64,000 nt of DNA, taken from NCBI RefSeq assembly GCF_013410665.1, contig NZ_JACCFM010000001.1, positions 2,108,001 to 2,172,000 of the forward strand, in the 5' to 3' direction. This DNA comes from Leifsonia psychrotolerans (lineage in GTDB: Bacteria > Actinomycetota > Actinomycetes > Actinomycetales > Microbacteriaceae). Within the stretch, counting starts at the first letter, position 1, and the number at the start of each line of letters is the position of its first letter. Below, piece after piece: positions 16,476 to 61,135 of the stretch. The notes below the pieces were generated by a model, which was not told the origin of the DNA, made no database searches, and saw only the letters and a program-made list of their open reading frames with translations. The position numbers were made by a program, and so were the translations under genes.

Positions 16476-16481
16476 TTAACG

Positions 16482-32191: not shown

Positions 32192-32267
32192 CGCTGGTCG
32201 AGCGTGTCGAGACCCGGGGGCGCACACCCGACACTGCCTCACGTGGTCTCAACACGCTCGACCAGCG
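32192..32267. repeat. Inverted repeat, 23-bp arms (same family as 16 kb array)
   Basis: Left arm 32192-32214 (CGCTGGTCGAGCGTGTCGAG plus ACC) and right arm 32245-32267 are inverted copies with one mismatch, separated by a 30-nt loop. A partial copy CCGCTGGTCGAACCC precedes it at about 32173. It lies 36 bp after the dehydrogenase stop and before the ligase gene, where it could act as a terminator or 3' stabiliser. Confidence 0.85.
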
Positions 32268-32323
32268 AATACTGGCCCACCGGGGGCACGGATCGGCAAC
32301 CGGCCCCGCACTATCCTGAGAAG

Positions 32324-33628
32324 ATGCCCAACGCTCGCAGCCGATTCGCCGTTCGAACCTTTGCGGTGTTTGCGCTCTTCACCCTGCTGGCCGGCCAATT
32401 TTGGCGTAACCTTCTCGGCTGGTGGGGGTTCGGTGCCGTTGCGGCTTTCGTATTGATCGGCGCCGTTGTCTTTCTCGTTCGACTGAAGCCCGACTGGTCC
32501 TGGCGACGATTCCCGAAGTCGCTCATCGCGTTTCTCGCAGTGGCGGTTCTGTCGATCGCGTGGTCGTTTTACCCGGGGGCGTCGGCCATCGGTGTGACAC
32601 TGCAGCTGGCGACGACAGTCAGCGCCCTCTTCGTGGCGTTGTGCCTGACCTGGACTGAGTTCGTGCGCACGTTCTCGCTTGCCCTGCGTTGGGTTCTTGG
32701 CCTCTCCCTCTTCTTTGAGCTCATCGTCGCCGTGTTCGTGCGGCAACCCGTTCTGCCGTTCTTCGTCGAATATGATCTGCAGAAGATTCCGGATGCCTTC
32801 TATTGGTCACTGGGAAAGCTTTTCTCGGGCGGACCGATCGAGGGCATCGTGGCCAACCGAAACATTCTTGGTTTCATTGCGCTGTTAGGCGTGATCGTGT
32901 TCGCAGTGCAGCTGGCGGCCGGCACGGTGCGGCGCGGCTGGGGCATGGCCTGGCTGATTCTGGCCATCGGGATGCTCGCGCTCACCCGATCGGCAACCGT
33001 GACGATTGCGGCCCTGGTCGTTGCCCTCGTGCTGCTCTTCGCGCTCTGGGCGCGCCAGGTCGGCCCGCAGGGGCGTCGAGGGGTCTACCTGACGGCTAGC
33101 GCATCCGTGATCGTATTCGTGGCCGTGCTTGCGATCTTCTTCTCGAGAATTCTCAACCTGCTCGGCAAGAGTGACGACCTCACGGGCCGCTTCGATATTT
33201 GGCGCAGCGTCACAGATTTGGCGGTTCAACGTCCGGTCTTCGGGTGGGGTTGGGTGAGCTACTGGGCACCCTGGGTCGAACCGTTCGCTCACCTGGCCGA
33301 ACGGAAGGGCGTGGTCTACCTGCAGGCGCACAACGCCTGGCTTGACGTGTGGCTGCAACTGGGGATCGTCGGAGTGCTCGTTTTCGCGGCGCTGGTCGTG
33401 TCGACTCTCTGGCGGAGCTGGTTTCTCGCCGTCGACCGCCCGCGCGTTGGCGTCGCGGATACACAGCCCTACTCGGCCTCTTCCCTTCTGCCCCTTCTGC
33501 TCATGGCGGCATTACTGGCACAGAGCATGACTGAAAGCCGCATTCTGATCGAGTACGGCTGGGTTGTGCTCGTGGTGTTGGCCGTCGTCACAAAACGGGC
33601 GCAAGGGCGCACCGTGCCGATGCCCTGA
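32324..33628 (+). CDS. O-antigen ligase/polymerase-type membrane protein (paralog 1)
   Basis: 434 residues, about 10-12 TM helices. Wzy_C/WaaL-type signature: GRFDIWRSV, GWGWVSYW in the large extracytoplasmic loop, then QAHNAWLDVWLQLGIVG with the His that is essential in WaaL-type ligases. Likely a polymerase or ligase for a lipid-linked surface glycan. Start ATG 32324 has no strong ribosome binding site; TATCCT lies 6 nt upstream, possibly a leaderless start. The next gene is a paralog of identical length. Confidence 0.85.
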   Translation: MPNARSRFAVRTFAVFALFTLLAGQFWRNLLGWWGFGAVAAFVLIGAVVFLVRLKPDWSWRRFPKSLIAFLAVAVLSIAWSFYPGASAIGVTLQLATTVSALFVALCLTWTEFVRTFSLALRWVLGLSLFFELIVAVFVRQPVLPFFVEYDLQKIPDAFYWSLGKLFSGGPIEGIVANRNILGFIALLGVIVFAVQLAAGTVRRGWGMAWLILAIGMLALTRSATVTIAALVVALVLLFALWARQVGPQGRRGVYLTASASVIVFVAVLAIFFSRILNLLGKSDDLTGRFDIWRSVTDLAVQRPVFGWGWVSYWAPWVEPFAHLAERKGVVYLQAHNAWLDVWLQLGIVGVLVFAALVVSTLWRSWFLAVDRPRVGVADTQPYSASSLLPLLLMAALLAQSMTESRILIEYGWVVLVVLAVVTKRAQGRTVPMP

Positions 33629-33661
33629 ACCGACAGCGCGAGCCGGTAGCGTAGAACAGCA

Positions 33662-34966
33662 ATGAATCCCCGCGGAAGTTCCCCCACCATCACTGCGGTG
33701 CGCCACTCGCTCGAGTCACCTCAGCTGGCGTCGGTACTCACACAGTTGGCGTTGGGCGTCGCGTTTTCCGCCTCGCTGTTGCGCGACCTGATCGGTCTGC
33801 CCGGTCTGCGTGGGGCGGTGTTCGCGCTGGTCGTCATTGCGGCGCTCTCGCTGGTGGCGCGAAGACGAACGCTCGGGTGGCATGGCCTGCTTCCGCTGTC
33901 TATTCTCATCTTCGTAGCGTGGTGCGCTCTCTCGATCGCCTGGAGCGGATACACCGTTCTGTCACTGGTTGGAGTCGGCGCCCAACTCACCTGGGCCTTT
34001 CTCGCGATCTATATTGCGCTCGTGCGCGACACGATTCAGATTCTGCGGGCGACGGGCAACGTATTGCGTGTCCTGCTGGGCGTCTCGCTCGGTCTGGAGG
34101 TGCTCTCGGGGCTGCTGCTCGACATGCCGTTCCGCTTCCTGGGCATCGAAGGGAACATTGCTTCGCTCGGGCCAATTCAAGGAATCTTCGGCTCGCGCAA
34201 TGCGCTGGGCCTCATCGCGTTGGTCGCCGCCGTCACCTTTTCGATCGAGCTGCGTTCCCGATCGGTCACCCGCAACGTCGGAATCGCATCGCTCGTGCTG
34301 ACCGGCGTCATGTTGCTGCTCACCCGCTCTCCCGTGATTGTGGTCGTCGCACTCTTCGTCGCGATCGCGGCTCTTGCGCTGTACTGGTTGCGGCGTACGC
34401 GCGTCGAGATCCGGTGGAGACTTCAGCTCGGCCTGGCTGGCGCAACAGTCGTCGTGGGAGTCATCGCTCTTGTCGCCCGCTCGCGCATTCTCGCGCTCTT
34501 GAATGCCGGCAGTGAGTTTGAGGTGCGGTACACCCTGTGGCGAGAAATGTGGCGGCTGACCGGCCTGCATCCGCTCGAGGGCTGGGGCTGGGTGGGTACC
34601 TGGCCGCAGTCAGTCACACCATACGGCTGGCTCGATTTCGTCACGAAACACAACCAGACATCGGGGTTGAACGCGTTCATCGACGTCTATCTGCAGGTCG
34701 GCCTGGTGGGGTTCATTCTGTTCCTCGCGCTGGTCACGTTGGCTTTCGTCCGGTCGTGGTTGCTCGCGTCGAACAAGCGCCCTCTCGTCTATGTCTGGCC
34801 GGCGCTCATCGTGGTGATCCTGCTCGTCATCTCGACCGCCGAGAGCACGGTATTGACCGGCTTTGGCTGGATGCTGTTGGTCGTGTGCGCGGTCAAGGCC
34901 GCGCAGGGCATGAGTTGGCGCACCGCCTTGGCCCGGCATCCTCATCAGAACCACGACCACGACTGA
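33662..34966 (+). CDS. O-antigen ligase/polymerase-type membrane protein (paralog 2)
   Basis: 434 residues, same topology as the preceding gene. Shared features: YTLWREMW, GWGWVGTW and NAFIDVYLQVGLVG. At the position of the paralog 1 His (HNAW) this copy has Leu (LNAF), while KHNQ occurs five residues earlier. It may have a shifted active site or a different role. Separated from paralog 1 by 33 bp, probably one transcript and an old tandem duplication. Converges with the LCP gene. Confidence 0.85.
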   Translation: MNPRGSSPTITAVRHSLESPQLASVLTQLALGVAFSASLLRDLIGLPGLRGAVFALVVIAALSLVARRRTLGWHGLLPLSILIFVAWCALSIAWSGYTVLSLVGVGAQLTWAFLAIYIALVRDTIQILRATGNVLRVLLGVSLGLEVLSGLLLDMPFRFLGIEGNIASLGPIQGIFGSRNALGLIALVAAVTFSIELRSRSVTRNVGIASLVLTGVMLLLTRSPVIVVVALFVAIAALALYWLRRTRVEIRWRLQLGLAGATVVVGVIALVARSRILALLNAGSEFEVRYTLWREMWRLTGLHPLEGWGWVGTWPQSVTPYGWLDFVTKHNQTSGLNAFIDVYLQVGLVGFILFLALVTLAFVRSWLLASNKRPLVYVWPALIVVILLVISTAESTVLTGFGWMLLVVCAVKAAQGMSWRTALARHPHQNHDHD

Positions 34967-36156: not shown

Positions 36157-36855
36157 TTAGCGATCGACGTGACGCTCCCAAGCCACGAGCGAGCTTTCGA
36201 ACCCAGGTATCGTTCTCAAAATCCCTTCGGCTGCACGGGGAGCAGTCCGAAATGCGTCGACCGCTAACGCGATCGATTCAGCCGAGAAACCCGCTCGCTC
36301 CATCGCGATTGAGTTACACCCCCGAACGTGCGCCGGATTACCAAATGCCTTTGCGAATGGGAGCACGTTGCGCGTGACGACCGATCCCATGCCCACCATC
36401 GATCCTTCCCCCACATATCGACGCTGGTGCACAGAGGCTCCCATTCCCAGATTCGCTCCGGCACCGATGACGACGTGACCGGCGAGCAGCACGCTCGAGG
36501 CGAGTGTCGCCCCGTCCTCAATAGTGCAATCGTGCGCGACGTAGCTCTGATTCATGAGAAAGATATTGTCTCCCAGTCGGGTAGTGCCTTGCCACCCCTG
36601 GTGGATCTGCACATACTCACGCACGACGTTGCCGCTGCCGATGACAATTCCGTTACCCGAGCTCAGCCGTGACGCTTCCTTCGGGTGCTCCCAACCCCGA
36701 ACCTCGGGCGGGGCGCCGATAATTGTCCCCGTTCCGAACCAGTTATCGTTCCCTACCGTTACAGGACCGATGATCACTGCGAGCGGGCCAATAGTGTTGC
36801 CGCTCCCCAGCACGACGTCGCCGATGAGCTGCGCGGAAGGATGTACTGAGTTCAC
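36157..36855 (-). CDS. LpxA-like left-handed beta-helix acyltransferase
   Basis: 232 residues, start GTG 36855 with AGGGA upstream. Hexapeptide repeats fill 1-175. It resembles LpxA rather than simple acetyltransferases: HPSAQLIGDV at the N-terminus, VAHDC (His108, at the position of the LpxA catalytic His), LLAGHVVIG, ASVHQR, GNPAHVRGCN and a C-terminal helical part with ERAGFSAESI. LpxA transfers acyl groups from acyl-ACP to UDP-GlcNAc in lipid A synthesis, which is not expected in a Gram-positive. Divergent from the DegT/Gfo-Idh pair, which suggests N-acylation of a 3-amino sugar nucleotide. Acyl donor unknown. Confidence 0.85.
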   Translation of the reverse strand: MNSVHPSAQLIGDVVLGSGNTIGPLAVIIGPVTVGNDNWFGTGTIIGAPPEVRGWEHPKEASRLSSGNGIVIGSGNVVREYVQIHQGWQGTTRLGDNIFLMNQSYVAHDCTIEDGATLASSVLLAGHVVIGAGANLGMGASVHQRRYVGEGSMVGMGSVVTRNVLPFAKAFGNPAHVRGCNSIAMERAGFSAESIALAVDAFRTAPRAAEGILRTIPGFESSLVAWERHVDR

Positions 36856-36967
36856 TGTGTCCCTACTGATACTTGGCGCGCTTCGTCGCAAGGCACTCGC
36901 ACCATCGGGTAAGTTGGATGCGCGCGCCGTCAAGACTGGCTCCCTAAAATCTAGCTCACGAGGTCGA

Positions 36968-38068
36968 ATGATTCCCATTACAACCGTCAAGTTTGGCCAC
37001 GAAGAAGAACAGCTCGTTCTAGAGGTTCTTCGATCGGGCTCGATCGCACAAGGCCCCAAGGTTGCGCAGCTTGAGAAGCGATTCGCTGAGTTGTTCAACG
37101 TACCTCATGCGATCGCAGTCAATAATGGCACAACGGCCCTTGTCGCTGCGCTGCAGGTTCTTGACTTGAAGCCCGGCGACGAAGTGATAACCAGCCCGTT
37201 CACGTTTGTAGCGACACTGAATGCGATTCTGGAAGCCGGAGCTACCGCAACGTTTGCCGACATTCGGGACGACGACTTCAACATCGACCCTCAGTCAGTC
37301 GCGGAGCGCATTACTGACCGCACGAAGGTCCTCTTGCCTGTGCACTTGTATGGCCAAATGGCCGACATGACCCCACTCGCCGGCCTCGCTGCAACGCACG
37401 ACCTCCGGATCCTTGAAGACGCTGCGCAGTCTCATGGCGCCACCTATGACGGACGCCATGCGGGGAGCTACGGTCTCGGTACTTTCTCTCTCTATGCGAC
37501 AAAAAACATCACGACGGGTGAAGGTGGTCTCATCACCACTGATGACGCGGTGCTCGCCGATCGCCTACGTGTTCTTCGCAACCAAGGCATGCGCGCCCGC
37601 TACGTCTATGAGATGGCTGGTAACAACTACCGTCTGACAGATCTCCAGGCCGCGATTGGCATTCCGCAGTTGGAGCGTTATGAGTCGATTGTTACGGCAC
37701 GACGCCGGAATGCCGACAGGTTGATTGAGGGCCTGTCCGACGTTCCGGGCATCGTTGTTCCTCGCGAACTTGAAGGCCGCGGCCATGTGTGGCACCAGTT
37801 CACGATTCGTGTGACAGAGGAAGCCGGGATTTCACGCGACACGTTGGTTGAGGAACTCACCGCCCGTGGGATCGGCTCAGGAATCTACTACCCGAAGCTG
37901 GTCTTCGACTACGACGCGTACCGCACGCATCCTCGCGTTGCCATCTCCGACGTGCCAGTCGCCGCACGAATCGTCACTGAGGTTGTGTCGTTGCCTGTTC
38001 ACACCGCTCTGTCCGATTCCGACCTGACTGAAATCATCTCTGCAGTTCGTACAGCGGCAGGGGCCTAG
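36968..38068 (+). CDS. DegT/DnrJ/EryC1/StrS sugar aminotransferase (GnnB/WbpE-like)
   Basis: 366 residues, PLP enzyme aminating a keto-sugar nucleotide. Start ATG 36968 with GAGGT upstream; a much longer open frame is shadow of the acyltransferase gene. Seen: NNGTTALVAAL (PLP phosphate), SPFTFVATLNAI, EDAAQSHGA, and PLP Lys179 in SLYATKNITTGEGG. It is 3 bp upstream of the Gfo/Idh gene. The likely substrate is the 3-keto sugar made by that oxidoreductase, by analogy with GnnA/GnnB or WbpB/WbpE. Confidence 0.92.
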   Translation: MIPITTVKFGHEEEQLVLEVLRSGSIAQGPKVAQLEKRFAELFNVPHAIAVNNGTTALVAALQVLDLKPGDEVITSPFTFVATLNAILEAGATATFADIRDDDFNIDPQSVAERITDRTKVLLPVHLYGQMADMTPLAGLAATHDLRILEDAAQSHGATYDGRHAGSYGLGTFSLYATKNITTGEGGLITTDDAVLADRLRVLRNQGMRARYVYEMAGNNYRLTDLQAAIGIPQLERYESIVTARRRNADRLIEGLSDVPGIVVPRELEGRGHVWHQFTIRVTEEAGISRDTLVEELTARGIGSGIYYPKLVFDYDAYRTHPRVAISDVPVAARIVTEVVSLPVHTALSDSDLTEIISAVRTAAGA

Positions 38069-38071
38069 GCA

Positions 38072-39034
38072 ATGACCAGTCGTACACGAGTTGTCCTTGT
38101 TGGCGCCGGCAATATGGGCACCAATCATGCTCGGGTTATATCTCAGTCAGACCGGGCTGAACTCGCTTTTCTCGTTGACCCACGCGAAGATGTCGGTCGC
38201 GCAGCTGCCGCACGCTTCGGAACGACATGGGTTCCGGAACTCCCCGATCTGGCCGACTGCGACGCCGTTGTCGTTGCCGCGGCGACTGAGGCCCACCATG
38301 ACCTCGCTATGCGAGTACTTTCTCAGAATCGCCCGCTGCTCATCGAAAAGCCAGTCGCTGACAGCCTGCTGCGCACACGGGAGATTCTCGATGAGGCAGA
38401 TGCACGCGATCTCCCGCTCATGTGCGGTCTTCTCGAAAGATATAACCCCGCTGTGATGACGGCGCGCTCAGTACTCGACAACCCGATGCATGTGGTCGCC
38501 ACGCGTCACTCACCGTACGCTCCTCGCATTCGCACCGGAGTTGCATGGGATCTACTCGTACATGATGTCGACCTCGCGATCAACATCATCGGCTCGGCCC
38601 CGACCCAAGTCCATGCGCAGCTTGGCTTCTTTCATCGTGACTCGGCCCCGTTCGCCGAGGATGTCGCGGAAACAGTGCTCGGCTTCGAGAACGGTGCAAT
38701 CGCTAGCGTGTCGGCTAGCCGAATTGGCCAGCGCAAGATTCGCCAGCTTTCAATCTATGAGGCTGACCGACTTATCGAAGTAGACCTTCTTCGACGAGAC
38801 GTGGTGATATATCGCCACATCTCCGAGAATTCCGTTGACGACGGTCGCGGGTATCGCCAGCAAACCGTCATCGAGATTCCTGAACTACTGACCGCTCAGG
38901 AACCGCTCACGTCACAGTTCTCGCGGTTCCTCGACATTATCGACGGCGCTGTTGATGCGGCGGCCGAGCGCGCGACCATTGCTCCGTCTCATGAAGTGAT
39001 CGATCAAGTTATCTCACGGAAGTCAGTCGCCTGA
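38072..39034 (+). CDS. Gfo/Idh/MocA family sugar oxidoreductase (GnnA/WbpB-like)
   Basis: 320 residues. Rossmann fold VVLVGAGNMGTNHARVI at the N-terminus, LLIEKPVADS with the conserved EKP, then the C-terminal alpha/beta domain with WDLLVHDVDLAINII. Likely oxidises C3 of a UDP-HexNAc using NAD(H). It follows the aminotransferase and precedes the GtrA gene by 1 bp, so all belong to one operon. Confidence 0.9.
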   Translation: MTSRTRVVLVGAGNMGTNHARVISQSDRAELAFLVDPREDVGRAAAARFGTTWVPELPDLADCDAVVVAAATEAHHDLAMRVLSQNRPLLIEKPVADSLLRTREILDEADARDLPLMCGLLERYNPAVMTARSVLDNPMHVVATRHSPYAPRIRTGVAWDLLVHDVDLAINIIGSAPTQVHAQLGFFHRDSAPFAEDVAETVLGFENGAIASVSASRIGQRKIRQLSIYEADRLIEVDLLRRDVVIYRHISENSVDDGRGYRQQTVIEIPELLTAQEPLTSQFSRFLDIIDGAVDAAAERATIAPSHEVIDQVISRKSVA

Positions 39035-39035
39035 C

Positions 39036-39488
39036 GTGCTAACGTCCGGCGATGCCAGTAGAAAAAGGACAGTGCGTCCGACTCGGCTCGGAAAGTTTCT
39101 GCAGCACTCTTCGATTCGGTATCTCATCGCCGGAGGGGTCGCCTTCCTTTTCGACATCGGCTTGCTCGCCCTCTTCAAGAACGTGTTTGATTGGCCGCTG
39201 TGGCTCGCAACCGGACTTGCCTTTCTGGCGAGCTTTTTCTTCACCTATACGATCCAACGCTTCTTCTCTTTTGAGTCGAGTGCTCCGCACGGAGCTGCTC
39301 TCGTCAAATACGCGGCACTCGTCGCGATCAACACCCTTGCAACTGTGGCAGTTGTAACGTGGATCAGCCCAACGGCACTCGGGTGGATCGGTGGCAAAGT
39401 CGTTGCGACCGGGGCGTCAACGGTGTGGAACTACTTCGCCTATCGTTACTGGGTGTTCAATTCAACTTACTCAAGCAAGAAGGACTAG
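39036..39488 (+). CDS. GtrA-like four-TM membrane protein
   Basis: 150 residues from GTG 39036. Four hydrophobic helices (about 28-48, 56-76, 90-110, 120-140) with SIRYLIAGGVAFLFDIG and the C-terminal TVWNYFAYRYWVF typical of GtrA. Members are thought to flip polyprenyl-phosphate-linked sugars across the membrane. The next gene is a matching GT2 enzyme, a GtrA-GtrB style pair. Confidence 0.9.
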   Translation: MLTSGDASRKRTVRPTRLGKFLQHSSIRYLIAGGVAFLFDIGLLALFKNVFDWPLWLATGLAFLASFFFTYTIQRFFSFESSAPHGAALVKYAALVAINTLATVAVVTWISPTALGWIGGKVVATGASTVWNYFAYRYWVFNSTYSSKKD

Positions 39489-39490
39489 AC

Positions 39491-40450
39491 GTGTACCGAG
39501 GCGCTCGCATTGCGGCAGTCGTACCAGCATATAAAGAAGAGAAAATGATCGCCACGGTCATTGAGACAATGCCTGAGTATGTGGATCACATCATCATTGT
39601 TGACGATTGCAGCCCGGACGACACGAGCGATGCCGTCAGGCGGACTACCGACGACCGAGTCACGCTCATTCGGCATCAGGTCAATCAAGGCGTCGGAGGG
39701 GCAATCGTCACCGGACACAAGGCCGCCATGGAGCTCGGCGCCGACGTGAACGTGATCATGGCTGGAGACGCTCAGATGGATCCGAAGCATCTGCCGCCGC
39801 TCCTCGACAGGGTGACTCGCGATGGTTATGGCTTCGCGAAGGCGAACCGGTTTTTCGCACCAGAGTCGTTTGAGGGTATGCCCAAATACCGCATTTTTGG
39901 GAACATTGTCCTCTCCTTTATGACCAAGCTTGCCTCCGGCTATTGGAACCTCTTCGACCCGCAGAACGGTTATACCGCAGTTCGCACCGAGGTTCTGCGC
40001 AGAGTCCCTCTGGACCGAGTGTCACGACGCTATAGCTTCGAGAACGATCTGCTCATTCATCTGAACATCTTGCAGGTTGGCGCTGTTGATGTCCCGATTC
40101 CGGCTGTGTACGGAACAGAAGTTTCCAGCATCCGGCTGGGCAAGGTCATTCCTGAACTCCTCGATCTACTTTTTCGAGGCTTCTGGCGCCGCATTTGGTA
40201 CCGCTACGTACTGTGGTCGTTCTCGCCCATCGCTCTTCTGCTTCTGCTCGGCATGGTTTTGTTCGGTGTCGGCCTCGGTATCGCAATTTGGGTGTGCTTC
40301 CAACTTGCGAGCTCGGTTGTTGCTACAGCAGCAACTGTCATGTTGGCGGCGCTCCCCCTCATGCTCGGAAGTCAACTCCTGATCAGCGCGCTTCAATTGG
40401 ACATCCAAGCGAGCCCTACTGAACCCACGTTTGCGCCGTTTGAGGTTTAA
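39491..40450 (+). CDS. Polyprenyl-phosphate-type GT2 glycosyltransferase
   Basis: 319 residues, start GTG 39491 with GAAGGA upstream. The GT-A domain resembles dolichol-phosphate-mannose/GtrB-type enzymes: VVPAYKEEKMIATVIETMP, VDDCSPDDTSDA, MAGDAQMDP and RYSFENDLLIHLN, followed by two C-terminal TM helices (about 225-285). Probably loads a sugar onto polyprenyl phosphate for transfer outside the cell. Paired with the GtrA gene 2 bp upstream. Confidence 0.9.
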   Translation: MYRGARIAAVVPAYKEEKMIATVIETMPEYVDHIIIVDDCSPDDTSDAVRRTTDDRVTLIRHQVNQGVGGAIVTGHKAAMELGADVNVIMAGDAQMDPKHLPPLLDRVTRDGYGFAKANRFFAPESFEGMPKYRIFGNIVLSFMTKLASGYWNLFDPQNGYTAVRTEVLRRVPLDRVSRRYSFENDLLIHLNILQVGAVDVPIPAVYGTEVSSIRLGKVIPELLDLLFRGFWRRIWYRYVLWSFSPIALLLLLGMVLFGVGLGIAIWVCFQLASSVVATAATVMLAALPLMLGSQLLISALQLDIQASPTEPTFAPFEV

Positions 40451-40534
40451 CGCAGGAAGCCGGCTCTTGATGGCCGGCGAAGGGCATTCTTCACTCTGCG
40501 CGGAGCGCACATCAACAAAAGGAATAACGAGAGA

Positions 40535-40636
40535 ATGAACATCGCGCCCCTCGCGCCGCTCGAAAGCGAACTTCCGCGTGCACGGAACGAACAACTCGCC
40601 ACCGCGGCGAGCGACGGGTTAGGACGTCAGGAATGA
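40535..40636 (+). CDS. Candidate 33-residue ORF coupled to the DUF2142 gene
   Basis: ATG 40535 to TGA 40634-40636, ending in an ATGA overlap with the next start. Reading MNIAPLAPLESELPRARN and onward, with codons mostly G/C at the third position as in neighbouring genes. A weak purine-rich site AACGAGAG is upstream. No family is recognised; it could be a leader peptide that couples translation, or chance. A short GCCGGC stem at about 40461-40481 precedes it. Confidence 0.4.
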   Translation: MNIAPLAPLESELPRARNEQLATAASDGLGRQE

Positions 40637-42153
40637 AGTCGCTTGCTCGTGTAATTCGTGAACGAATCTTCCTGACTTTCGTGGTCATCTGGGCCGGAAT
40701 TTCGATGGCCTCAGTCGCGTGGGCCATGGCGACGCCGATGGGCGCCAGCCCCGACGAACCGGCACACATCGTCAAGGCGGCCTCCGTCGTGCGAGGCCAG
40801 TTCATCGGTGATTCGACGGATCAACCTGCCGTCACCACGGTGATGGTCCCGGAGGGCTTGGCGGATTCCCGGGCCTGGGCCTGCTATGCGTTCCAAGCAA
40901 ATCAAACAGCGGGGTGCCAGCCTCCGTTCGTGTCAAACGACAAATTGGTCCCGGCTCGGACATCCGCCGGCATGTACAACCCTGTCTACTACGCCGTTGT
41001 CGGGTGGCCGTCGGTACTGACAGACAATCCGCGTGTAGCTGTCTATGGGATGCGCACTATCAGCGCGATCCTCAGCTCATTCTTTTTCGCAGTCGCAATG
41101 ACTGCGATGTTGGCGTTTCGACGGCCGCTCATCGCTGGCTTTGCGACGATCGCGATCATCACACCCATGGTGCTCTTCCTCATGGGATCGGTGAACCCAA
41201 ACGCACTTGAGATTTCGGCTGGCGCCGCGCTCCTTTCGCTCCTTCTGCTTCTTGTCAGGGGCCCGCGAATTCGGCATCAACGACTTGCGCTGGTCAGTCT
41301 GAGTGCTGCCGGTGTTCTCCTCGCCAGCTCACGAGGGCTGTCCCCGGCGTGGATGTTGATGATTGCCGTCGTGGCGATCATCGCAGCGCCCTGGCCCCGA
41401 CTGCGCGAACTACTCCGACTCCCTCGAGTGTGGGCCTCACTTGCGACGATGGGGGCAGGTGTTCTCTTCGCGACATGGTGGATTCTTCAGACAAGCACGT
41501 TGTCAAAGATGGGCTCATTTGCTGGTTCCGAAATATCGCCGGCCAAAGCCTTCGTCACAATGCTGGTCGATAGATCGTTCGATCCGGGTTTGATCGGTGT
41601 CTTCGGTTGGCTCGACACGTTGTCGCCCACCGTGGTCTATGCAATTTGGTCGTTCCTTGCAGTCTCGATAGTGGTGGCTGCATTCATTGTTGGCCGGGGG
41701 CGCCCGCTCGTCGCTCTCGCTGTCAGCTTCGCTGGCTTCATGCTGCTTCCTGCCGCATTCCAAGCGGTATCAATCTCGAACTCCGGCTACATCTGGCAGG
41801 GTCGCTACACGTTGATCGCGTACGCCTGCGCCATAGTGATGGCATTCGTCACGCTGGCGGCAGCGCCGTCGAATATGGTTGTTCTGCCGCGACAGAATGC
41901 CATGCGTGGCACCCTCATTGTCGGAGGCTTGGCGATTGCCGCGCACGCATTCGCCCTCGTGTGGGTCATCAAACGATACGCAGTCGGGGTCGGTGGCTCG
42001 TGGGGGTCCTTTATCAAGATTCCGCAGTGGGCCCCACCGGGTGGCACGGTACCGTGGCTCCTCGCCGTGACAGTCGGGATGGCACTCGTTGTCTTCGTGT
42101 GGAGCGCGTGGAGCGTGCGTTCGCCTGAGAAGGTTCCAGCGCTGACGAACTGA
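40633..42153 (+). CDS. DUF2142 family polytopic membrane protein
   Basis: 506 residues, about 11 TM helices. The first extracytoplasmic loop has SPDEPAHIVKA, the family's acidic motif resembling GT-C glycosyltransferases, then ACYAFQANQTAGCQ with two Cys and MYNPVYYAVVG. DUF2142 proteins occur in polysaccharide loci and are possibly lipid-linked-sugar glycosyltransferases; this is unproven. Start ATG 40633 overlaps the small ORF stop. Last gene of the rightward 36968-42153 operon. Confidence 0.88.
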   Translation: MKSLARVIRERIFLTFVVIWAGISMASVAWAMATPMGASPDEPAHIVKAASVVRGQFIGDSTDQPAVTTVMVPEGLADSRAWACYAFQANQTAGCQPPFVSNDKLVPARTSAGMYNPVYYAVVGWPSVLTDNPRVAVYGMRTISAILSSFFFAVAMTAMLAFRRPLIAGFATIAIITPMVLFLMGSVNPNALEISAGAALLSLLLLLVRGPRIRHQRLALVSLSAAGVLLASSRGLSPAWMLMIAVVAIIAAPWPRLRELLRLPRVWASLATMGAGVLFATWWILQTSTLSKMGSFAGSEISPAKAFVTMLVDRSFDPGLIGVFGWLDTLSPTVVYAIWSFLAVSIVVAAFIVGRGRPLVALAVSFAGFMLLPAAFQAVSISNSGYIWQGRYTLIAYACAIVMAFVTLAAAPSNMVVLPRQNAMRGTLIVGGLAIAAHAFALVWVIKRYAVGVGGSWGSFIKIPQWAPPGGTVPWLLAVTVGMALVVFVWSAWSVRSPEKVPALTN

Positions 42154-42352: not shown

Positions 42353-43351
42353 TCAGGCGGGCTGAAGCAGGTCGCGCAGAACATCGGTGCTGCCCTGGCT
42401 CGCGAAGCGCGTGTAGTCGCCGGTCGTCGCGCGCTTCAGCACGGGAAGAAGGCGACGGATGCGCGCACCGGGCAATTCTGCACGGAACCTCTCGAATGCA
42501 GCCTTGCCCCGCGCCGCCTGCACGAGGTCATCGTCAAGCTGCAACTCTTCGAAGCGCTGCTGCAGAACCCGTGAGCGCACAGCGAGAAGGCGGTTGCGAT
42601 CACCCCGTGGCATGAGCACCCGTTTGACCTTGTTGGCCAGGCTCGGTTCACGCACACCGATCTCGTTGTTACCGTGTTGCCGGTAGTCAATCACCTCGCG
42701 GTCGATCAGATCGACGCCGTTCGTCGCGGCGGCGATAACGGCAAGCCACTCATCGTGGATCCACTCGGTCGGAAACGGTAGCGCGCGCTTCAGGAGGCTG
42801 CGTCGGAACAATACCGTCGCGCCCGTGACGACGTTGCGGCGCAGTAATACGTCGAATGCGTGGCCCTGATGCACGGCCGCGCGCGTCGTCTCGTCGAACT
42901 CGAGGGTCTCGAACAGACTCGAGCCCAGCGGAGCGCCGTGCTCGTCAACCAGCCGGGCGTCACCGAACAGCAGCGTCAGATCGCTGCGGCTGTCGAACTC
43001 GGCCAGTTGCACTGCCAAACGATCGGCATGCCAGAGATCATCCTGGTCGCTCAGAGCGATGAGATCCTGTGTGCACGCCGCCACCGCACGCTCAAAGTTC
43101 TTTGTGACACCGTTGCCGCCAGGGCCCTCAAGGATTCTAATGTCGACGGAATCACCCTGCGAACGGATCTCGGCAGCGATGGCTCGCACGATGTCAACGG
43201 TGGCATCTGCCGACCCATCATCGGCGACGACGATCTCGGCGATTCGCGCGCTTTGCGCCAAAATGCTGCGCAACTGGGCTGCGATGAACCGCGCACCGTT
43301 GAAGGTGCAGAGTGCGACCGACACCTGTGAAGTCGGGACAGGGTTCTGCAT
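42353..43351 (-). CDS. GT2 glycosyltransferase, rhamnosyltransferase-like
   Basis: 332 residues. GT-A domain with VSVALCTFNGARFIAAQL, VVADDGSADATVD, SDQDDLWHADRL (DxD region) and WIHDEWLAVIAAA, close to the WfgS/rhamnosyltransferase group that acts on O-antigen-like chains. Acceptor and donor not determinable. Its ATG overlaps the stop of the upstream GT2-GT4 gene by 1 nt (TAATG), so it is translationally coupled. Confidence 0.9.
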   Translation of the reverse strand: MQNPVPTSQVSVALCTFNGARFIAAQLRSILAQSARIAEIVVADDGSADATVDIVRAIAAEIRSQGDSVDIRILEGPGGNGVTKNFERAVAACTQDLIALSDQDDLWHADRLAVQLAEFDSRSDLTLLFGDARLVDEHGAPLGSSLFETLEFDETTRAAVHQGHAFDVLLRRNVVTGATVLFRRSLLKRALPFPTEWIHDEWLAVIAAATNGVDLIDREVIDYRQHGNNEIGVREPSLANKVKRVLMPRGDRNRLLAVRSRVLQQRFEELQLDDDLVQAARGKAAFERFRAELPGARIRRLLPVLKRATTGDYTRFASQGSTDVLRDLLQPA

Positions 43352-45837
43352 TACCGCAGGCGCCTGATGCGGCTCTGCACCTTCTTGATAACCACCTTCG
43401 GGCCACCATTCTTGAGATAGTGCACCAAGAGGCCGGCATCATGGCGAAGGCCATGCTTTTTGCGACGTGCGATCGGGCGACGTGCGCCGCCGGTCGAACC
43501 TGCCGTCACGGCGCCGCTTTCGATCAGGTCGGCGGCGTGCTGGGGGTCGGCGACGAAGTCGACCAGCGGAGCCAACACCGTGTTCCAGGCATAGTCCGTG
43601 CGCACCCGTTTGATGTTCTTGCGCGTTGTCCGTGCGAACTTCTCGTCAAAAAGCACCTTTTCGAGCGCCGCAGTCAACGCCACGACATCGGTCGGCGGAA
43701 CGACAATGCCGAGCTTCTCTGTGGCGATGAGTTCGGCGAAGTGGTCGCCCTCTGTCACCACCATCGGCAGTTCAGCCCAGAGGTAGTCGAGGATGCGGGT
43801 GCGGAACGAGAACGTGGTCTCAACGTGGGCAAAGTGCGTACTCACACCGGCATCTGCCTCACCCAGGTAGTTGTGGCGGTCGGCGTAGTCGACCCAGGAG
43901 GAGTTGAAGAAGACCGAACGATCGAGCACACCGAGTTCTTGGGCCAAGGCGCGGGACTCGGCGACGATGCCCATTTCAGGTACGCCGGGGTGCGGGTGTT
44001 TGGTGCCTTGGAAGAACAGACGCACGTTGTCGTGGCTCTCAGACAGCCGGGCCACCGCACGGATGAGGGTCTTGGGGTCGAACCAGTTGTACAGGCCGCC
44101 ACTCCACAACAGCACCTTGTCGTCGGCCGAGATTCCCGGCAGCACGCCCTTCAAAGCGGGCTTCGAGGAGTCGGGGAAGTCGGGGTTCAGCCCGAACGGG
44201 ACGACACTGATGAGTCCGGTCAGGTCGGGATCCGTCGCGTAGTTGGCCGGATTGACTCGGCCCAGAGCCGCCAGCTGGCCGAGGTAGAAGTGGCGTTGGC
44301 GTTCCGACGCGCAGAGAAAGTAATCCCCGCGCAGGAGCTGCTCGTTGAGAACCTCTGTCGCGTCGACAACCTGCTTGTTCCACTGCGCAGCGCCCTGTTC
44401 ACGACCCTGCTCGAGCTGCTCAAGGTGCATCGGGTCGTAAATGTCGGCGACGATGATCTTGTCTGAGCGGCGGATGCTGTCAAACAATGCCATGGCCAAG
44501 CCCTGGAACACGATGACATCGGTCTCACGCTCAAGCCTGCTCATGGCCCGGTCGTCGCCCGGGTGCACGTGCACGATGTCGAACGGTGCTGAGATCGGCT
44601 CCGTGCCCGCCAGCGTGACCAGGGTGACCTCGTTGTCGACAGAGAGTGCCTCGGCCATGTTCCAGGCTCGAATCGCTGGACCGGCCATCTTCGCACCGAT
44701 CGGATCACCCGTAATGACGAGTACCCGTGTCACGGCCGGAGTTTCAGTCACACCAAATGCTGTGGCGATTTTGTCGTATCCCTCGAGGTAGTGCTCCGAT
44801 TGGTACGACGGAGCATCGGTTTCACCGAACAGGCTCCACAGTCGATTGTCCGAAATGATGCGGGTGGACTGGATCTCATTGCGTGAAGCGAGCAATGACG
44901 GCAGGTGCTCGACGAACTGGTCGATAGCATACACACCTGCCAGGGTGTCTTTTGCAACCTCCATGGTCGGGCCGTTGTCGGCGCCCTTGCGCAGGTCGAA
45001 CTCGGTGGAGTCAAGCTTCCCCCGGGCGACAGCACGCCGCACTGTGAGGGCGAGCGTGGCCGGCAGCGCCTGCGCGAGCGCTTCGTCGCCGAGGTTCTTA
45101 TATTGGGTGAAGAGTGCGTTGCGCTCGAGCAGGTAGCTTTCTTTGAACGCACCGAATGAGCTCATCGACGCGTGATGCTTGTGGAACGCCAGCGAGGCTG
45201 GCTCATAGACATAGCGCCAGCCGCGGAGGTTGAGCCGCCAGCCGAGATCGACGTCCTCGAAGAACATGAAAAAGCGCTCGTCAAAGCCGCCGAGCGCGTC
45301 GTACACCGAGCGGCGAACGAACATGGCCGAGCCGGTTCCGAAGAGAACGTCGTGCACGCGGTCGGGCTCCGACGGGACAGGCTGTGCCGTGAGCGGCTTG
45401 TAGCCTTGCCCGAACCAGGTCATAGCCGAACCGATGTAGTCCACGAGGTTGCCATCCCAATCGAGAACACGGCTCGCCACCGCGCCGATGGCCGGACTCT
45501 CGGCGAAGCGTTCGACGGCCGCGCGCACCCAGGCGGCATCCGGCTTGGCATCGTTGTTCAGGAAGGCGATGAACTCGCCCGACGAGGCCTTGACTCCGAG
45601 ATTGCAGCCGCCGGCGAAGCCAAGGTTCTTCTTCGATTCGATCAGTCGAACGTGCGGGGCAGCGGCACGGATTCGGTCAGCGCTATCGTCACCAGAAGCG
45701 TTCTCGACGACCACGATTTCAAGCAAGTCGACCGGCCAGTCAAGCTTGCCGAGTTTGTCGATGGCTTCGATGGTGTCGTCGGTCCCCCGGAAGTTCACGA
45801 GTACAACGGAGACGACACCAGGACGGAGCTGAGGCAT
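43351..45837 (-). CDS. Two-domain GT2-GT4 glycosyltransferase fusion
   Basis: 828 residues. GT2 domain about 1-280 (VVSVVLVNFRG, VVENASGDDS, FLNNDAKPDAAW, FFEDVDLGWRL), a helical linker, then a GT4-type domain about 365-750 (MAGPAIRAWNMAEALS, IVADIYDPMHLEQLEQG, VLLWSGGLYNWFDPKTL, RTRILDYLWAELPMV) and a basic tail. The same two modules occur as separate neighbouring genes at 53021-53866 and 53863-55239, with matching motifs. Probably adds two successive sugars to the growing glycan. First gene of a two-gene leftward operon. Confidence 0.92.
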   Translation of the reverse strand: MPQLRPGVVSVVLVNFRGTDDTIEAIDKLGKLDWPVDLLEIVVVENASGDDSADRIRAAAPHVRLIESKKNLGFAGGCNLGVKASSGEFIAFLNNDAKPDAAWVRAAVERFAESPAIGAVASRVLDWDGNLVDYIGSAMTWFGQGYKPLTAQPVPSEPDRVHDVLFGTGSAMFVRRSVYDALGGFDERFFMFFEDVDLGWRLNLRGWRYVYEPASLAFHKHHASMSSFGAFKESYLLERNALFTQYKNLGDEALAQALPATLALTVRRAVARGKLDSTEFDLRKGADNGPTMEVAKDTLAGVYAIDQFVEHLPSLLASRNEIQSTRIISDNRLWSLFGETDAPSYQSEHYLEGYDKIATAFGVTETPAVTRVLVITGDPIGAKMAGPAIRAWNMAEALSVDNEVTLVTLAGTEPISAPFDIVHVHPGDDRAMSRLERETDVIVFQGLAMALFDSIRRSDKIIVADIYDPMHLEQLEQGREQGAAQWNKQVVDATEVLNEQLLRGDYFLCASERQRHFYLGQLAALGRVNPANYATDPDLTGLISVVPFGLNPDFPDSSKPALKGVLPGISADDKVLLWSGGLYNWFDPKTLIRAVARLSESHDNVRLFFQGTKHPHPGVPEMGIVAESRALAQELGVLDRSVFFNSSWVDYADRHNYLGEADAGVSTHFAHVETTFSFRTRILDYLWAELPMVVTEGDHFAELIATEKLGIVVPPTDVVALTAALEKVLFDEKFARTTRKNIKRVRTDYAWNTVLAPLVDFVADPQHAADLIESGAVTAGSTGGARRPIARRKKHGLRHDAGLLVHYLKNGGPKVVIKKVQSRIRRLR

Positions 45838-46680: not shown

Positions 46681-47503
46681 GAAGAGCACAGCCAAGGCGC
46701 AACGGGTGCTCCCTCTTGCGATGTCGTCCGTCTGGTTTGAACGGGGGTCGAGATCCCTCCCCGAGACCGAGCGAGTCGCGATCATCGCTAGCTTTGCGCC
46801 CGACAACACGGTTTCTCGTTCCCTCGCCACGTTGACTCGCGAGCTGGAAAAGCACTCGTACACCGTCATCATCGTGCGGGCATCAGACACTACTGATCCT
46901 TTGATCTGGCCGGAGGACTATCCCGTACGTGCGACGATCGTGCGGAAATCAAATATTGGCTACGACTTCGGTTCGTGGGCTGTCGGACTCAAGCTTTTTC
47001 CGAGTGTTCGCCGCAAGAAGTTCGTCATTTTGGCTAACGACAGCCTGGTTGGGCCGTTCGGCGATCTCGACCAGCTGATCACGAGCTTTGAGAGCGCCAC
47101 GACCAATGTGTGGGCGGCGACGAACACCGCCCAGATTCGCCCTCATGTGCAGAGTTTCTTCGTCGGCTACCGCGACGGTATCCTGAACGACCGATCGCTC
47201 CGTCAATTCTGGTCGAACGTTGCCGTAGAACCAGACAAGCAGCAAATCATCCAACGCTACGAGCTCGGCCTCAGCCAGCTACTTCTCGCCGAAGGACTCA
47301 CGACTTCCGCCTGTTTCGAATCCGAACGTGTAGTGTCACAAGCTGAGAATCCAACGGTGGAGGGGTGGCGAAATTTGGTCAAGATTGGTTTCCCCTTCGT
47401 GAAACGCGAACTCATCACAAACTCATCCGTAGTCCCCGACGGCCAAGACGTCCCGGATGTCGTCCTCGAGCGCTTCGGCACCGACCCCCGCACGTGGCTC
47501 TAG
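46667..47503 (+). CDS. RgpF-type rhamnan synthesis protein
   Basis: 278 residues, start ATG 46667 (MARTKKSTAKAQR). The domain resembles RgpF (rhamnan synthesis F): VAIIASFAPDNTVSRSL, KSNIGYDFGSWAVGL, FVILANDSLVGPFG, and WAATNTAQIRPHVQSFFVG. RgpF-type enzymes add or extend rhamnose-containing chains. Start overlaps the small coiled-coil gene. The next gene carries a second RgpF-type domain. Confidence 0.82.
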   Translation: MARTKKSTAKAQRVLPLAMSSVWFERGSRSLPETERVAIIASFAPDNTVSRSLATLTRELEKHSYTVIIVRASDTTDPLIWPEDYPVRATIVRKSNIGYDFGSWAVGLKLFPSVRRKKFVILANDSLVGPFGDLDQLITSFESATTNVWAATNTAQIRPHVQSFFVGYRDGILNDRSLRQFWSNVAVEPDKQQIIQRYELGLSQLLLAEGLTTSACFESERVVSQAENPTVEGWRNLVKIGFPFVKRELITNSSVVPDGQDVPDVVLERFGTDPRTWL

Positions 47504-47528
47504 GCCAGCGCCCAAGGAATACGAGACA

Positions 47529-49565
47529 ATGACGATTACCCCACTTGGTCGAACAAGGAGCGTTCTCAGCCGCGGATTTGGCGTGCTCTCTCGCCTCCTG
47601 GCAAACCCGACACCTCCAGTGACAGAAACGGCGCATCCCGCGACATTCGATGCCTGGACCGCCCGCCGATCAAGCAAGTTGCGCCCGAGCGTCCCGCCCC
47701 AATGGCTGAATTCTCTTCGTGTGCCGGACTCACCCGCGCGGATTGCTGTCGTTCTACATGTCTTCTACACCGACCTGATCGGCGAGATTCTGGATGAGCT
47801 TCGGCACATTCCGGTGCCGTTCGACGTGATTGTCACGAACGCCAGCGGAACAGACCTGGAACTCGACACGACTCACCTTGAACTCATGTCGCACCTGACG
47901 GTGCTTGACGTCGCAAACCATGGCCGCGACATCCTGCCTCTCATTTCCGTGGCGAACGCCGATCTGCTTGAACCGTACGATCTTGTTCTGAAGATCCACA
48001 CAAAGAAGAGCGAGTGGCGCGAGAATCACTCTGATCTCGGCGGGAGCGGCACCGAATGGCGCCGTGGTTTTCTCTCGGGGTTGTTGGGATCCCGCGCAAC
48101 CGTCGAGAAGATTCTCGGCGAGTTTGCGTCGGATCCCAGCCTCGGCTTGCTCACGACCGACGGCAACGTACTCGGTCCGGAGTTCTGGGGAGGGGATCGT
48201 ACGCTTGCCCGCGAGATTCTTCTTCGTCTCCAGCTCGAACTCGACGAAGAGTCTCTTCGTTTCGCAGCCGGATCAATCTATTGGGTGCGCGGATTCGTGC
48301 TTCAAGGATTGCGTGCCTTGAACCTTGACTCTGACGACTTCGACGCTGAAGCCGGGCAAGTCGACGGGACTACCGCTCATGCTGTCGAGCGGATTATCGG
48401 GATTCTCACGCTCGAGGCCGGCTATGAAACGCGCCAGATCTCCCAGCTGGCGCCCTCCGCACCAGATGCCTGGCGTCGCTATGAGACCACCCACCCGGTT
48501 CGTCCGCGCGCCCGCGTTGTTCCGTTCTACCTGCCCCAGTTCCACACCTTCCCCGAAAACGAGGCCTGGTGGGGTGCGGGTTTCACCGAGTGGTCGAATG
48601 TCGCGTCGGCCCAGCCGGTCTTCCGCGGTCATAATCAGCCGTTCCTGCCGGCCGAACTCGGGTTCTATGATTTGTCGAACGAAAACGTGCGCACCCGCCA
48701 GTACGAGCTTGCATCCACCGCGGGCATCGAAGGCTTCATGTACTACTACTACTGGTTTGCCGGTACGAAGCTGATGAACATGCCGGTCGACGACCTCTCG
48801 TTGGGCGACAATCACGAGCCGTTCTGCATCATGTGGGCAAATGAGAATTGGACTAGGCGCTGGGACGGGGGATCCGAGAACGTGCTGATCGCTCAGGACT
48901 ACGACGAAGTTCCAGCGACCCAGTTCATTCACGACATCCTCCCGTTGATCACCGACCCCCGTTACATCCGCGTCGACAACAAGCCGCTCGTGTCCGTGTA
49001 TCGGATTACCCAAATTCCCGACTACACAACTGTTCTGGCCTATTGGCGCCAAGTCGCTGTGGATGCCGGCCTCGACGGCCTTCACCTGGTCACCGTCGAT
49101 GTGGGCCGGAGCATGGACGGCATCGACACAGATTTGTCCGCACACGGGCTCGATGCGTTTCTCGAGTTTGCTCCGCACAACCGCAAGTGGACTCCTCAAG
49201 ATCGAGACGACCTCGGTGTCGACACACGATTCGAAGGCAACATCTTGAGCTACGCGGCCATGGCCGGCGGCTCAGAGCTGCAGTTGCTGGAGCCGATCGA
49301 CGTGCAACGCTACCCCGGCGTCATGGTGAACTTCGACAACACGGCGCGACGCCAATGGCAGCCTGACCTCTGGTACGGCGCCAACCCATTCACATTCCGT
49401 CGCTGGTTGAACTCAGCGGTTTCCGCCGTGTCAGACCGCGATTTCGATCATCGTCTGGTTTTCATCAATGCCTGGAACGAATGGGCCGAAGGCGCGGTGC
49501 TCGAACCCTCGCAGCGTTTCGGTCGAACGTATCTGCTTGCAGTTCACGATGTTCTCTTTCGCTAA
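47529..49565 (+). CDS. RgpF-WbsX two-domain glycan protein
   Basis: 678 residues from ATG 47529. The N-terminal RgpF-like part (about 55-310) has VLHVFYTDLIGEIL, HLTVLDVANHGRDILPL, KIHTKKSEWRE and GTEWRRGF. The C-terminal WbsX/GH99-like part (about 335-665) has VVPFYLPQFHTFPENEAWWG, FTEWSNVASAQP, YYYYWFAGTKLM, MWANENWTRRWDG and FINAWNEWAEGA. WbsX is a domain of O-antigen clusters whose fold matches glycoside hydrolase family 99; whether it synthesises or trims is unsettled. It probably acts on the same polymer as its neighbours. Confidence 0.88.
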   Translation: MTITPLGRTRSVLSRGFGVLSRLLANPTPPVTETAHPATFDAWTARRSSKLRPSVPPQWLNSLRVPDSPARIAVVLHVFYTDLIGEILDELRHIPVPFDVIVTNASGTDLELDTTHLELMSHLTVLDVANHGRDILPLISVANADLLEPYDLVLKIHTKKSEWRENHSDLGGSGTEWRRGFLSGLLGSRATVEKILGEFASDPSLGLLTTDGNVLGPEFWGGDRTLAREILLRLQLELDEESLRFAAGSIYWVRGFVLQGLRALNLDSDDFDAEAGQVDGTTAHAVERIIGILTLEAGYETRQISQLAPSAPDAWRRYETTHPVRPRARVVPFYLPQFHTFPENEAWWGAGFTEWSNVASAQPVFRGHNQPFLPAELGFYDLSNENVRTRQYELASTAGIEGFMYYYYWFAGTKLMNMPVDDLSLGDNHEPFCIMWANENWTRRWDGGSENVLIAQDYDEVPATQFIHDILPLITDPRYIRVDNKPLVSVYRITQIPDYTTVLAYWRQVAVDAGLDGLHLVTVDVGRSMDGIDTDLSAHGLDAFLEFAPHNRKWTPQDRDDLGVDTRFEGNILSYAAMAGGSELQLLEPIDVQRYPGVMVNFDNTARRQWQPDLWYGANPFTFRRWLNSAVSAVSDRDFDHRLVFINAWNEWAEGAVLEPSQRFGRTYLLAVHDVLFR

Positions 49566-56050: not shown

Positions 56051-57397
56051 TCAGGCGCGGGCGCAGTCGTAGTAGTGGATTGTGTAGCCCCGTACGATGT
56101 AGGTCCAGTACGCCTTGCGGGAGGCGTACTGCGCGTCCATAGTGTCGGTGATGCTTCCCCCGCCAAACCCCGGCCCATGCGAGCTGGAGTACGACACGCT
56201 TGAGCACCGACCGTAGGGGATATAACGGGTCATTTTGCCGAGGACTCGCGGCGGGCTCTCGGGGGGACGGGTGCCGCACTGGGTGAGGTTCATCACATCG
56301 GGGCCGAGCGTTTTCACCCCACCGACAATGCTGTACTTCGTCGCGGGACCACCTGACATCAGCATTGTCGACCAGATATCGAGGCAACTCGGGTGTGAGA
56401 GGTACAGGCTGGCTCCCCGCCGCCCCGCGATCACTCCGGCCGCCAGTGCATCCGGAAAATTGTAGGCAGTGACGACGAAACCCTCTGCCGCATTCGACGG
56501 CCCGTTCGACATCGCCGCCTGCGTGGCGAACCGGTCCTCTCCCGCATATCGCTCGATACTCCAGGGATTCGGGAGGGTGAGCACCTGCTTCTCGATGCCC
56601 TTACTCACCGCGTTCACGCCACCGACGATGTCGATACTGCTCGCAATAGTTGCGGCATAGGCCATAGTCGCTGCCGGGAGTGCGTCTTGTTTTCCGTCGA
56701 CGACAAGCACCGGCGCGCCCCACTCTGCAGCCCTCGGGCCAATCAGGATGGCGTCTGCGAAGTCTCTGCCGGTGGCGATGAATGCCGATTCTGCCCCGGG
56801 AAAGAACCGCTTCGCGACTGCCAGCGACGTCTCATAGCGCGAACTGCCGCTGATGCGTTCCACCCGAGCGAGCTTCGTCAGGTCGGTCTCGACCTGGGCC
56901 GAGACGGCTGATCGTCCCCCGACGATGACTATATTCTTCGGTGCAAGACGCACAATCTCAGCACGTGTCACGGCCGGCAAGGCGTCCTTCTCGGTCATCA
57001 GAATGGGGCCGCCGAGCTTTGCCGCGGCGGGAACGGCCGAGAGGGCATCCGGAAAATCCCGCCCCGAGGTGATGACCACGATCGGGGTTCCCGGAGCGAA
57101 CTCTGACTGGGAGAGCTTCACCGCGGTGGCGTGGCGATCAACACCCTCGACACGCGTGGTGCCCGCCCACTTCTTGCCGGCGTAGCGAAACGTCTCTTCT
57201 TCGCCGGGGACAGCGGCGGCTTGGGCGGGCCTCCCCGCCTCGACATTCTCTCGGGACTCTGGCTCGGCGGTCGTGGCCGTGCTGTCGCTCGTTCGCACCT
57301 CGACGCGATCCGAATCGGTGCCGGTGGAAGCGAAGCTCGGCTGCACGAACGAACAGCTCAGTGCGACGACGACGAGAACGATGAGCGAACGCAACAT
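56051..57397 (-). CDS. Secreted protein with three CWB2 cell-wall-binding repeats
   Basis: 448 residues from ATG 57397 with AGGGGG upstream. Signal peptide 1-24 (ending PSFAS), a variable linker, then three CWB2 repeats (about 80-345) with the pattern RVEGVDRHATAVKLS..FPDALSAVPAAA, RISGSSRYETSLAVA..FADAILIGPRA, and RYAGEDRFATQAAMS..FPDALAAGVIAG. CWB2 binds anionic secondary wall polymers. The C-terminal 75 residues are an unfamiliar aromatic/Ser/Gly-rich domain with two Cys. Divergent from the metzincin gene. Confidence 0.88.
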   Translation of the reverse strand: MLRSLIVLVVVALSCSFVQPSFASTGTDSDRVEVRTSDSTATTAEPESRENVEAGRPAQAAAVPGEEETFRYAGKKWAGTTRVEGVDRHATAVKLSQSEFAPGTPIVVITSGRDFPDALSAVPAAAKLGGPILMTEKDALPAVTRAEIVRLAPKNIVIVGGRSAVSAQVETDLTKLARVERISGSSRYETSLAVAKRFFPGAESAFIATGRDFADAILIGPRAAEWGAPVLVVDGKQDALPAATMAYAATIASSIDIVGGVNAVSKGIEKQVLTLPNPWSIERYAGEDRFATQAAMSNGPSNAAEGFVVTAYNFPDALAAGVIAGRRGASLYLSHPSCLDIWSTMLMSGGPATKYSIVGGVKTLGPDVMNLTQCGTRPPESPPRVLGKMTRYIPYGRCSSVSYSSSHGPGFGGGSITDTMDAQYASRKAYWTYIVRGYTIHYYDCARA

Positions 57398-61119: not shown

Positions 61120-61135
61120 CCCGCGAGTGAGAACC

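Follow-up and report, generated by a model that had tools for sequence, protein, structure and literature searches.

LpxA, an O-acyltransferase acting on position 3 of uridine diphosphate N-acetylglucosamine (UDP-GlcNAc), opens endotoxin synthesis. In Acidithiobacillus or Leptospira, its acceptor is UDP-GlcNAc3N, the 3-amino derivative of UDP-GlcNAc, which receives a (3-hydroxy)fatty acyl group carried by acyl carrier protein (acyl-ACP). In A. ferrooxidans, the oxidoreductase GnnA and the transaminase GnnB convert UDP-GlcNAc toward the diamino sugar GlcN3N (excerpt of PMC8036547). The WbpB/WbpE/WbpD route has also been described (excerpt of PMC10622841), as have the acetyltransferase MMP0350 and the diacetamido uronic acid GlcNAc3NAcA in archaeal glycans (excerpt of PMC2952790). 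In mycobacteria, PpgS is a polyprenyl-phosphate-sugar synthase and Rv3632 a small membrane protein (excerpt of PMC3485146). Here, a gene trio is described from a 64-kb stretch (the window) of the genome of the actinobacterium Leifsonia psychrotolerans, encoding an LpxA-like hexapeptide acyltransferase, a DegT aminotransferase and a Gfo/Idh oxidoreductase. We think it fairly probable that the trio makes an activated 3-acylamido sugar, most likely carrying acetyl, for a cell-surface polysaccharide built with the products of the adjoining GT2, GtrA and DUF2142 genes. The trio is arranged as follows:

36157..36855, minus strand: LpxA-like hexapeptide acyltransferase, 232 aa, GTG start; predicted UDP-GlcNAc3N 3-N-acyltransferase, probably using acetyl
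36856..36967: intergenic region, 112 bp separating the divergent start codons; presumably a promoter region common to both sides
36968..38068, plus strand: DegT/DnrJ/EryC1/StrS aminotransferase, 366 aa, ATG at 36968; predicted to aminate UDP-3-keto-GlcNAc (GnnB-like role)
38072..39034, plus strand: Gfo/Idh/MocA oxidoreductase, 320 aa; predicted UDP-GlcNAc 3-dehydrogenase (GnnA-like)

The original prediction, made from the letters of the window, described a 232-residue LpxA-like protein divergent from a DegT aminotransferase and a Gfo/Idh oxidoreductase in a Gram-positive genome. The coordinates, NCBIfam and Pfam matches far beyond chance, and the named close homologues among the matches listed, all from Cryobacterium, Rathayibacter, Leifsonia, Agromyces, Microbacterium and the like, bear this out.

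By its sequence, the protein encoded at 36157-36855 (minus strand) is LpxA-like and not a true LpxA. The translation places His108 within VAHDC and contains the predicted strings LLAGHVVIG, ASVHQR, GNPAHVRGCN and GFSAESI. It matches two NCBIfam LpxA models (E 9e-46 and 4.5e-41) at scores under both equivalog cut-offs (156.1 vs 226 and 140.8 vs 231 bits), while E. coli LpxA, the control on the same models, reaches 403 and 375 bits. The LpxA C-terminal domain PF13720 (domain 2) is matched above its cut-off (31.9 vs 24.5 bits) over profile positions 2-42 of 82 only, and this gene gives the single PF13720 match in the genome. The NeuD-family score is 106 bits vs 80 for E. coli LpxA, which is a weak hint at most. 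A WbpD-type acetyltransferase was rejected on sequence: structure 3mqg, which we take to be WlbB, is matched with E 1.5e-4 and 24.8 bits, vs 102 bits for the best match in the Protein Data Bank (PDB), 8e62. The latter is named 'UDP-N-acetylglucosamine acyltransferase' and is presumably the 3-N-acetyltransferase of the Psychrobacter cryohalolentis GlcNAc3NAcA pathway.

In an unrooted maximum-likelihood tree of 46 rows, nine of them with long end branches, 17 LpxA rows (E. coli, P. aeruginosa, Leptospira and 14 Bacteroidota) are separated together with one actinobacterial row, L057, with support 100/98. The remaining actinobacterial LpxA-like proteins lie outside this LpxA branch, and 8e62 takes no resolved place. 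Two LpxA-like rows from Bacteroidota (L032, L063) do not fit this division, grouping with the LpxA side (96/71) and away from the actinobacterial rows. A Sphingobacteriales genome holds both kinds, L059 in the true LpxA branch and an LpxA-like protein in a cluster with Gfo/Idh and DegT genes (L032:7119-10681). The deviating L057 (251-769) retains Asp74 and Lys76 and comes from an Actinomycetota genome that is 79% complete, where its contig measures 3.3 kb and may be contaminating. The structure model of the LpxA-like protein (predicted local distance difference test score, pLDDT, 79; predicted template modelling score, pTM, 0.72) gave no Foldseek match at E <= 0.001. VIA aligned 219 model residues to P. 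aeruginosa LpxA with a root-mean-square deviation of 11.4 and 30% identity, and the register looks right; the absence of 8e62 from these structural matches carries no weight. The solenoid of the model is probably wrong-handed, and the acyl groove was therefore not read from it.

Which acyl group would such a protein carry? Residues were surveyed, in E. coli numbering, in 24 actinobacterial rows (22 distinct; L057 not counted) at positions that we take to serve catalysis, the uridine site and the acyl-length ruler of LpxA. The equivalents of the catalytic His125 and Asp126 are kept in 24/24 rows, as are those of His160, Gln161, Asn198 and Arg204, and that of His144 in 23/24. Lys76 of the Q73-D74-x-K76 loop occurs in none of the 24 rows vs 16 of 17 LpxA rows, the exception being Leptospira. 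Gln73 is replaced by Glu and Gly173 by Met throughout, the same Met being found in 8e62 and P. aeruginosa LpxA, and His122 by Tyr in 21 rows, a Tyr also present in 8e62. The net charge of the first 30 residues past Asn198 averages -1.9 in 57 close-family rows (the query included; range -5 to +2), with means of -1.8 and -2.0 in two more actinobacterial groups (5 and 7 rows). The mean of the 14 Bacteroidota LpxA is +3.1 (range +1 to +5), and E. coli LpxA has +6. C-terminal fragments gave -3 for 8e62 (21 residues), +2 for Leptospira LpxA (16) and +5 for P. aeruginosa LpxA (27). Since an enzyme working with ACP should carry basic residues there, the acidic C-terminal domain would speak for a coenzyme A (CoA) donor. 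Together with the position outside the LpxA branch, residues and charge would favour acetyl or another short acyl group over a fatty acyl group.

Alternatively, a (3-hydroxy)fatty acyl group could be transferred from acyl-ACP onto UDP-GlcNAc3N, yielding a lipid-bearing glycan or glycolipid. The scores of 141-156 bits with LpxA models, the PF13720 domain and the retention of catalytic and uridine-site residues are consistent with this, as is the stretch NSIAMERAGFS, which resembles NSVGMKRAGFS of Leptospira LpxA, a protein that likewise has no Lys76. Met at 173 alone does not exclude a C10 chain either, because P. aeruginosa LpxA, which has this Met, has been solved with a 3-hydroxydecanoyl product (title of 5dg3). 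However, the protein falls outside the LpxA branch, its C-terminal domain is acidic, and neither LpxB nor LpxC gave a match in the genome, with both searches positive in control genomes including E. coli. On this balance a fatty acyl product is unlikely. The broader proposal is that an LpxA-family enzyme attaches (3-hydroxy)fatty acyl to UDP-GlcNAc3N, giving an actinobacterium that lacks an outer membrane an acylated amino-sugar glycan or glycolipid through chemistry of the lipid A type. This seems to us quite improbable; it would be a surprise if true. The label of true LpxA was rejected on the equivalog cut-offs, the tree position, the absent Lys76 and the missing LpxB and LpxC matches. Kdo2-lipid A genes were present in none of seven Gram-positive bacteria examined, according to an excerpt of PMC3087551.

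The two partner enzymes are recognised by Pfam with E 8.3e-119 (DegT) and 2.2e-19 (Gfo/Idh). As the original prediction held, the oxidoreductase is GnnA-like: its best solved match is GnnA of A. ferrooxidans, tied with PmdC in one comparison. Its best NCBIfam model is the UDP-GlcNAc 3-dehydrogenase NF040723, whose name is archaeal (142 bits vs a cut-off of 450). From these matches it is predicted to be a GnnA-like UDP-GlcNAc 3-dehydrogenase. The DegT protein is predicted to act in a GnnB-like role.

From gene identities, gene order, family placement and residue differences, we infer the following route. The Gfo/Idh enzyme would oxidise UDP-GlcNAc at C3 to UDP-3-keto-GlcNAc, and the DegT enzyme would place an amino group on C3 to give UDP-GlcNAc3N. 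The LpxA-like enzyme, with His108 (His125 of E. coli LpxA) as the putative general base, would then acylate the 3-amine with a short group, most likely acetyl supplied by acetyl-CoA, so that the product would be UDP-2-acetamido-3-acylamido-2,3-dideoxyglucose. The GT2/GtrA pair may transfer the 3-acylamido sugar onto polyprenyl phosphate for flipping, and the DUF2142 protein may transfer the sugar to the cell-surface polysaccharide. That the trio makes a UDP-3-acylamido-GlcNAc for a surface glycan is very likely, and the acyl group is probably acetyl. The same family evidence would also suit another short acyl group on the same 3-amino sugar nucleotide, formyl or 3-hydroxybutyryl, say. Hexapeptide transferases use several acyl-CoA donors; no special acyl-donor gene, however, was recognised among the Pfam-scanned neighbours, which are part of the window genes, and we hold this variant to be improbable. 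A uronic-acid route was thought less likely, the sole UDP-sugar 6-dehydrogenase over cut-off in the genome lying ~190 kb beyond the window.

The trio is a conserved unit. Relatives of the LpxA-like protein are patchily distributed: at E <= 1e-30 they occur in 30 of 398 family genomes, in 16 of 85 genera and in 1 of the 9 other genomes listed for the same genus, and at 1e-20 in 5 of 396 phylum genomes, the source genome included. A single-sequence scan of genome_contigs returned one locus, which is no measure of distribution. Neighbourhoods were examined for every one of the 30 family loci, for the 4 further phylum loci and for the locus from Sphingobacteriales, calling neighbours by tblastn at >= 45 bits in stretches of 11-20 kb, some ended by contig edges. 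The original prediction had suggested looking for the trio in other Microbacteriaceae. Of the 13 close loci (>= 53% identity, source locus included), 12 carry it in the divergent arrangement, their aligned ends 93-135 bp apart. When the full set of 30 family loci is counted, 28 have a DegT gene no more than 10.5 kb away and 24 have both partners; both are also found at 3 of the 4 other phylum loci, the fourth being the L057 contig. In a second arrangement (L039:3495-12443), a single strand carries a distant Gfo/Idh gene, the LpxA-like gene and a Wzm/Wzt-like pair, and DegT is divergent from them; the order is similar in L040, L041, L045, L046, L114 and L118. The L039 Gfo/Idh protein, the one tested from this arrangement, also matches the UDP-GlcNAc 3-dehydrogenase model best among those of NCBIfam (230 bits). 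A DUF6541 protein is encoded upstream in all four loci scanned for it (L039, L115, L116, L120).

The gene stretch around the trio reads as a surface-polysaccharide region by its Pfam content, in keeping with the surface-glycan setting originally proposed. On the strand of DegT and Gfo/Idh follow three genes, which with the trio form a six-gene block:

39036..39488, plus strand: GtrA-family small membrane protein (PF04138)
39491..40450, plus strand: GT2 glycosyltransferase resembling polyprenyl-phosphate sugar synthases, GTG start picked by eye
40633..42153, plus strand: DUF2142 membrane protein, a possible GT-C-type transferase
36157..42153: six-gene block of low GC content at third codon positions (GC3), from the LpxA-like gene to the DUF2142 gene

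The best NCBIfam model of the GT2 protein is PpgS. On the other flank of the LpxA-like gene stand a LytR-CpsA-Psr (LCP) gene and two genes with Wzy_C domains. The latter form a tandem O-antigen ligase-like pair (32204-34966), and both also adjoin the LpxA-like gene in the relatives L034, L037, L107, L108, L110 and L113. Further right, additional glycosyltransferases include a fused GT2 and group-1 enzyme of 828 aa (43351-45837) and a 702-aa protein with RgpF and WbsX fused (47457-49565); CWB2 proteins and an ABC transporter whose C-terminal domain is Wzt are also encoded there. Three CWB2-repeat proteins lie in 56051-63998, two of them with reprolysin-like metallopeptidase matches.

Mean GC3 of the six-gene block is 0.648, while that of the other 31 genes is 0.739, and the block has the lowest mean among 32 six-gene runs. 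This comparison covers 37 hand-listed genes, chosen with the 16.5-23.3 kb stretch and several small or overlapping open reading frames excluded; one gene outside the block (15559-16479, GC3 0.619) is as low as its members. The block is bordered by polysaccharide genes of ordinary composition. Low GC3 and patchy distribution suggest that the six genes were acquired together, as a single imported piece.

Several observations weigh against an acetylated GlcNAc derivative made by the trio for its GT2/GtrA neighbours. Besides the Met of P. aeruginosa LpxA, there is the close relative P0018, whose C-terminal charge is +2, and the acyl donor assignment rests on indirect residue and charge arguments. 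By phmmer, 8e62 is tied with Burkholderia LpxA (102 vs 99 bits), and with a 57-row family profile several true LpxAs score equal to or above it. Its closeness was thus rejected as proof of acetyl transfer, given also its unresolved place in the tree and its presumed function and organism. GtrA and GT2 are contiguous with the trio in only 7 of the 13 close loci (of the others, L037 ends at a contig edge). The tblastn neighbour search found neither partner around L108 and L121 and no Gfo/Idh in L044, L115, L116 and L120, and the co-location counts are raw, carrying no chance rate for DegT or Gfo/Idh genes in random polysaccharide clusters. Finally, for the DegT protein perosamine synthase is the top match (244 bits; WbpE, 180 bits), and NtdA is also among the matches. 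It is thus conceivable that the dehydrogenase and aminotransferase act on a kanosamine-type or nucleoside diphosphate (NDP)-6-deoxysugar substrate, which the LpxA-like enzyme then acylates, the more so as all three proteins score below the NCBIfam equivalog cut-offs. The closeness of the Gfo/Idh protein to GnnA and the conservation of the LpxA residues for the UDP-HexNAc site nevertheless make this very unlikely.

Of the original prediction, the 3-acylamido sugar pathway for a surface glycan stands, whereas the fatty acyl group, then put forward as a possibility, is not supported as the leading option (outside the LpxA branch, Met at Gly173, acidic C-terminal domain, no LpxB or LpxC found) and becomes a less likely branch. 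Many such Gram-positive proteins carry the database label 'UDP-N-acetylglucosamine acyltransferase' or 'acyl-ACP--UDP-N-acetylglucosamine O-acyltransferase'. These names suggest lipid A chemistry, although the source genome shows neither LpxB nor LpxC. The sequences point instead to a separate LpxA-related group acting on a 3-amino sugar for surface polysaccharide. In a limited look at the literature, part of it seen as excerpts, no description of LpxA-like proteins of Actinobacteria was found, nor literature on diacetamido sugars in Microbacteriaceae or joining LpxA, WbpD and hexapeptide transferases. For Microbacteriaceae, the locus offers a route to a 3-acylamido sugar that can be put to the test. 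It is also a case for learning how the use of acyl-ACP or acyl-CoA is switched in the LpxA fold.

How does the locus compare with the known systems? With A. ferrooxidans GnnA/GnnB and LpxA, which provide UDP-GlcNAc3N for lipid A, it shares the three-step logic and a Gfo/Idh enzyme that matches GnnA best; with Leptospira LpxA, it shares an LpxA-fold acyltransferase having His125 and no Lys76. Differently from both, LpxB and LpxC were not found, the acyltransferase lies outside the LpxA branch with an acidic C-terminal domain, and the setting is a Gram-positive polysaccharide region. The LpxA-like protein resembles 8e62, its first single-sequence PDB match, in the equivalents of Glu73, Tyr122, Arg162 and Met173 and in the acidic end, whereas 8e62 has 189 aa and its close homologue P0244 has no listed PF13720. 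The mycobacterial PpgS/Rv3632/Rv3779 route, from polyprenyl-phosphate-GalNAc (GalNAc, N-acetylgalactosamine) to arabinogalactan, likewise combines a GT2, a small membrane protein and a further transferase; the GT2 here, however, reaches 59 bits with the PpgS model, far under its cut-off of 370. The GlcNAc3NAcA pathway of Methanococcus maripaludis also provides a 3-acylated amino sugar for a surface glycan, and UDP-GlcNAc 3-dehydrogenase is the best NCBIfam model here; there, the glycan is on archaeal protein and the sugar a uronic acid. The same succession of a 3-dehydrogenase, a DegT aminotransferase and a hexapeptide N-acetyltransferase is found in WbpB/WbpE/WbpD (WlbA/WlbC/WlbB) of the UDP-GlcNAc3NAcA pathway.

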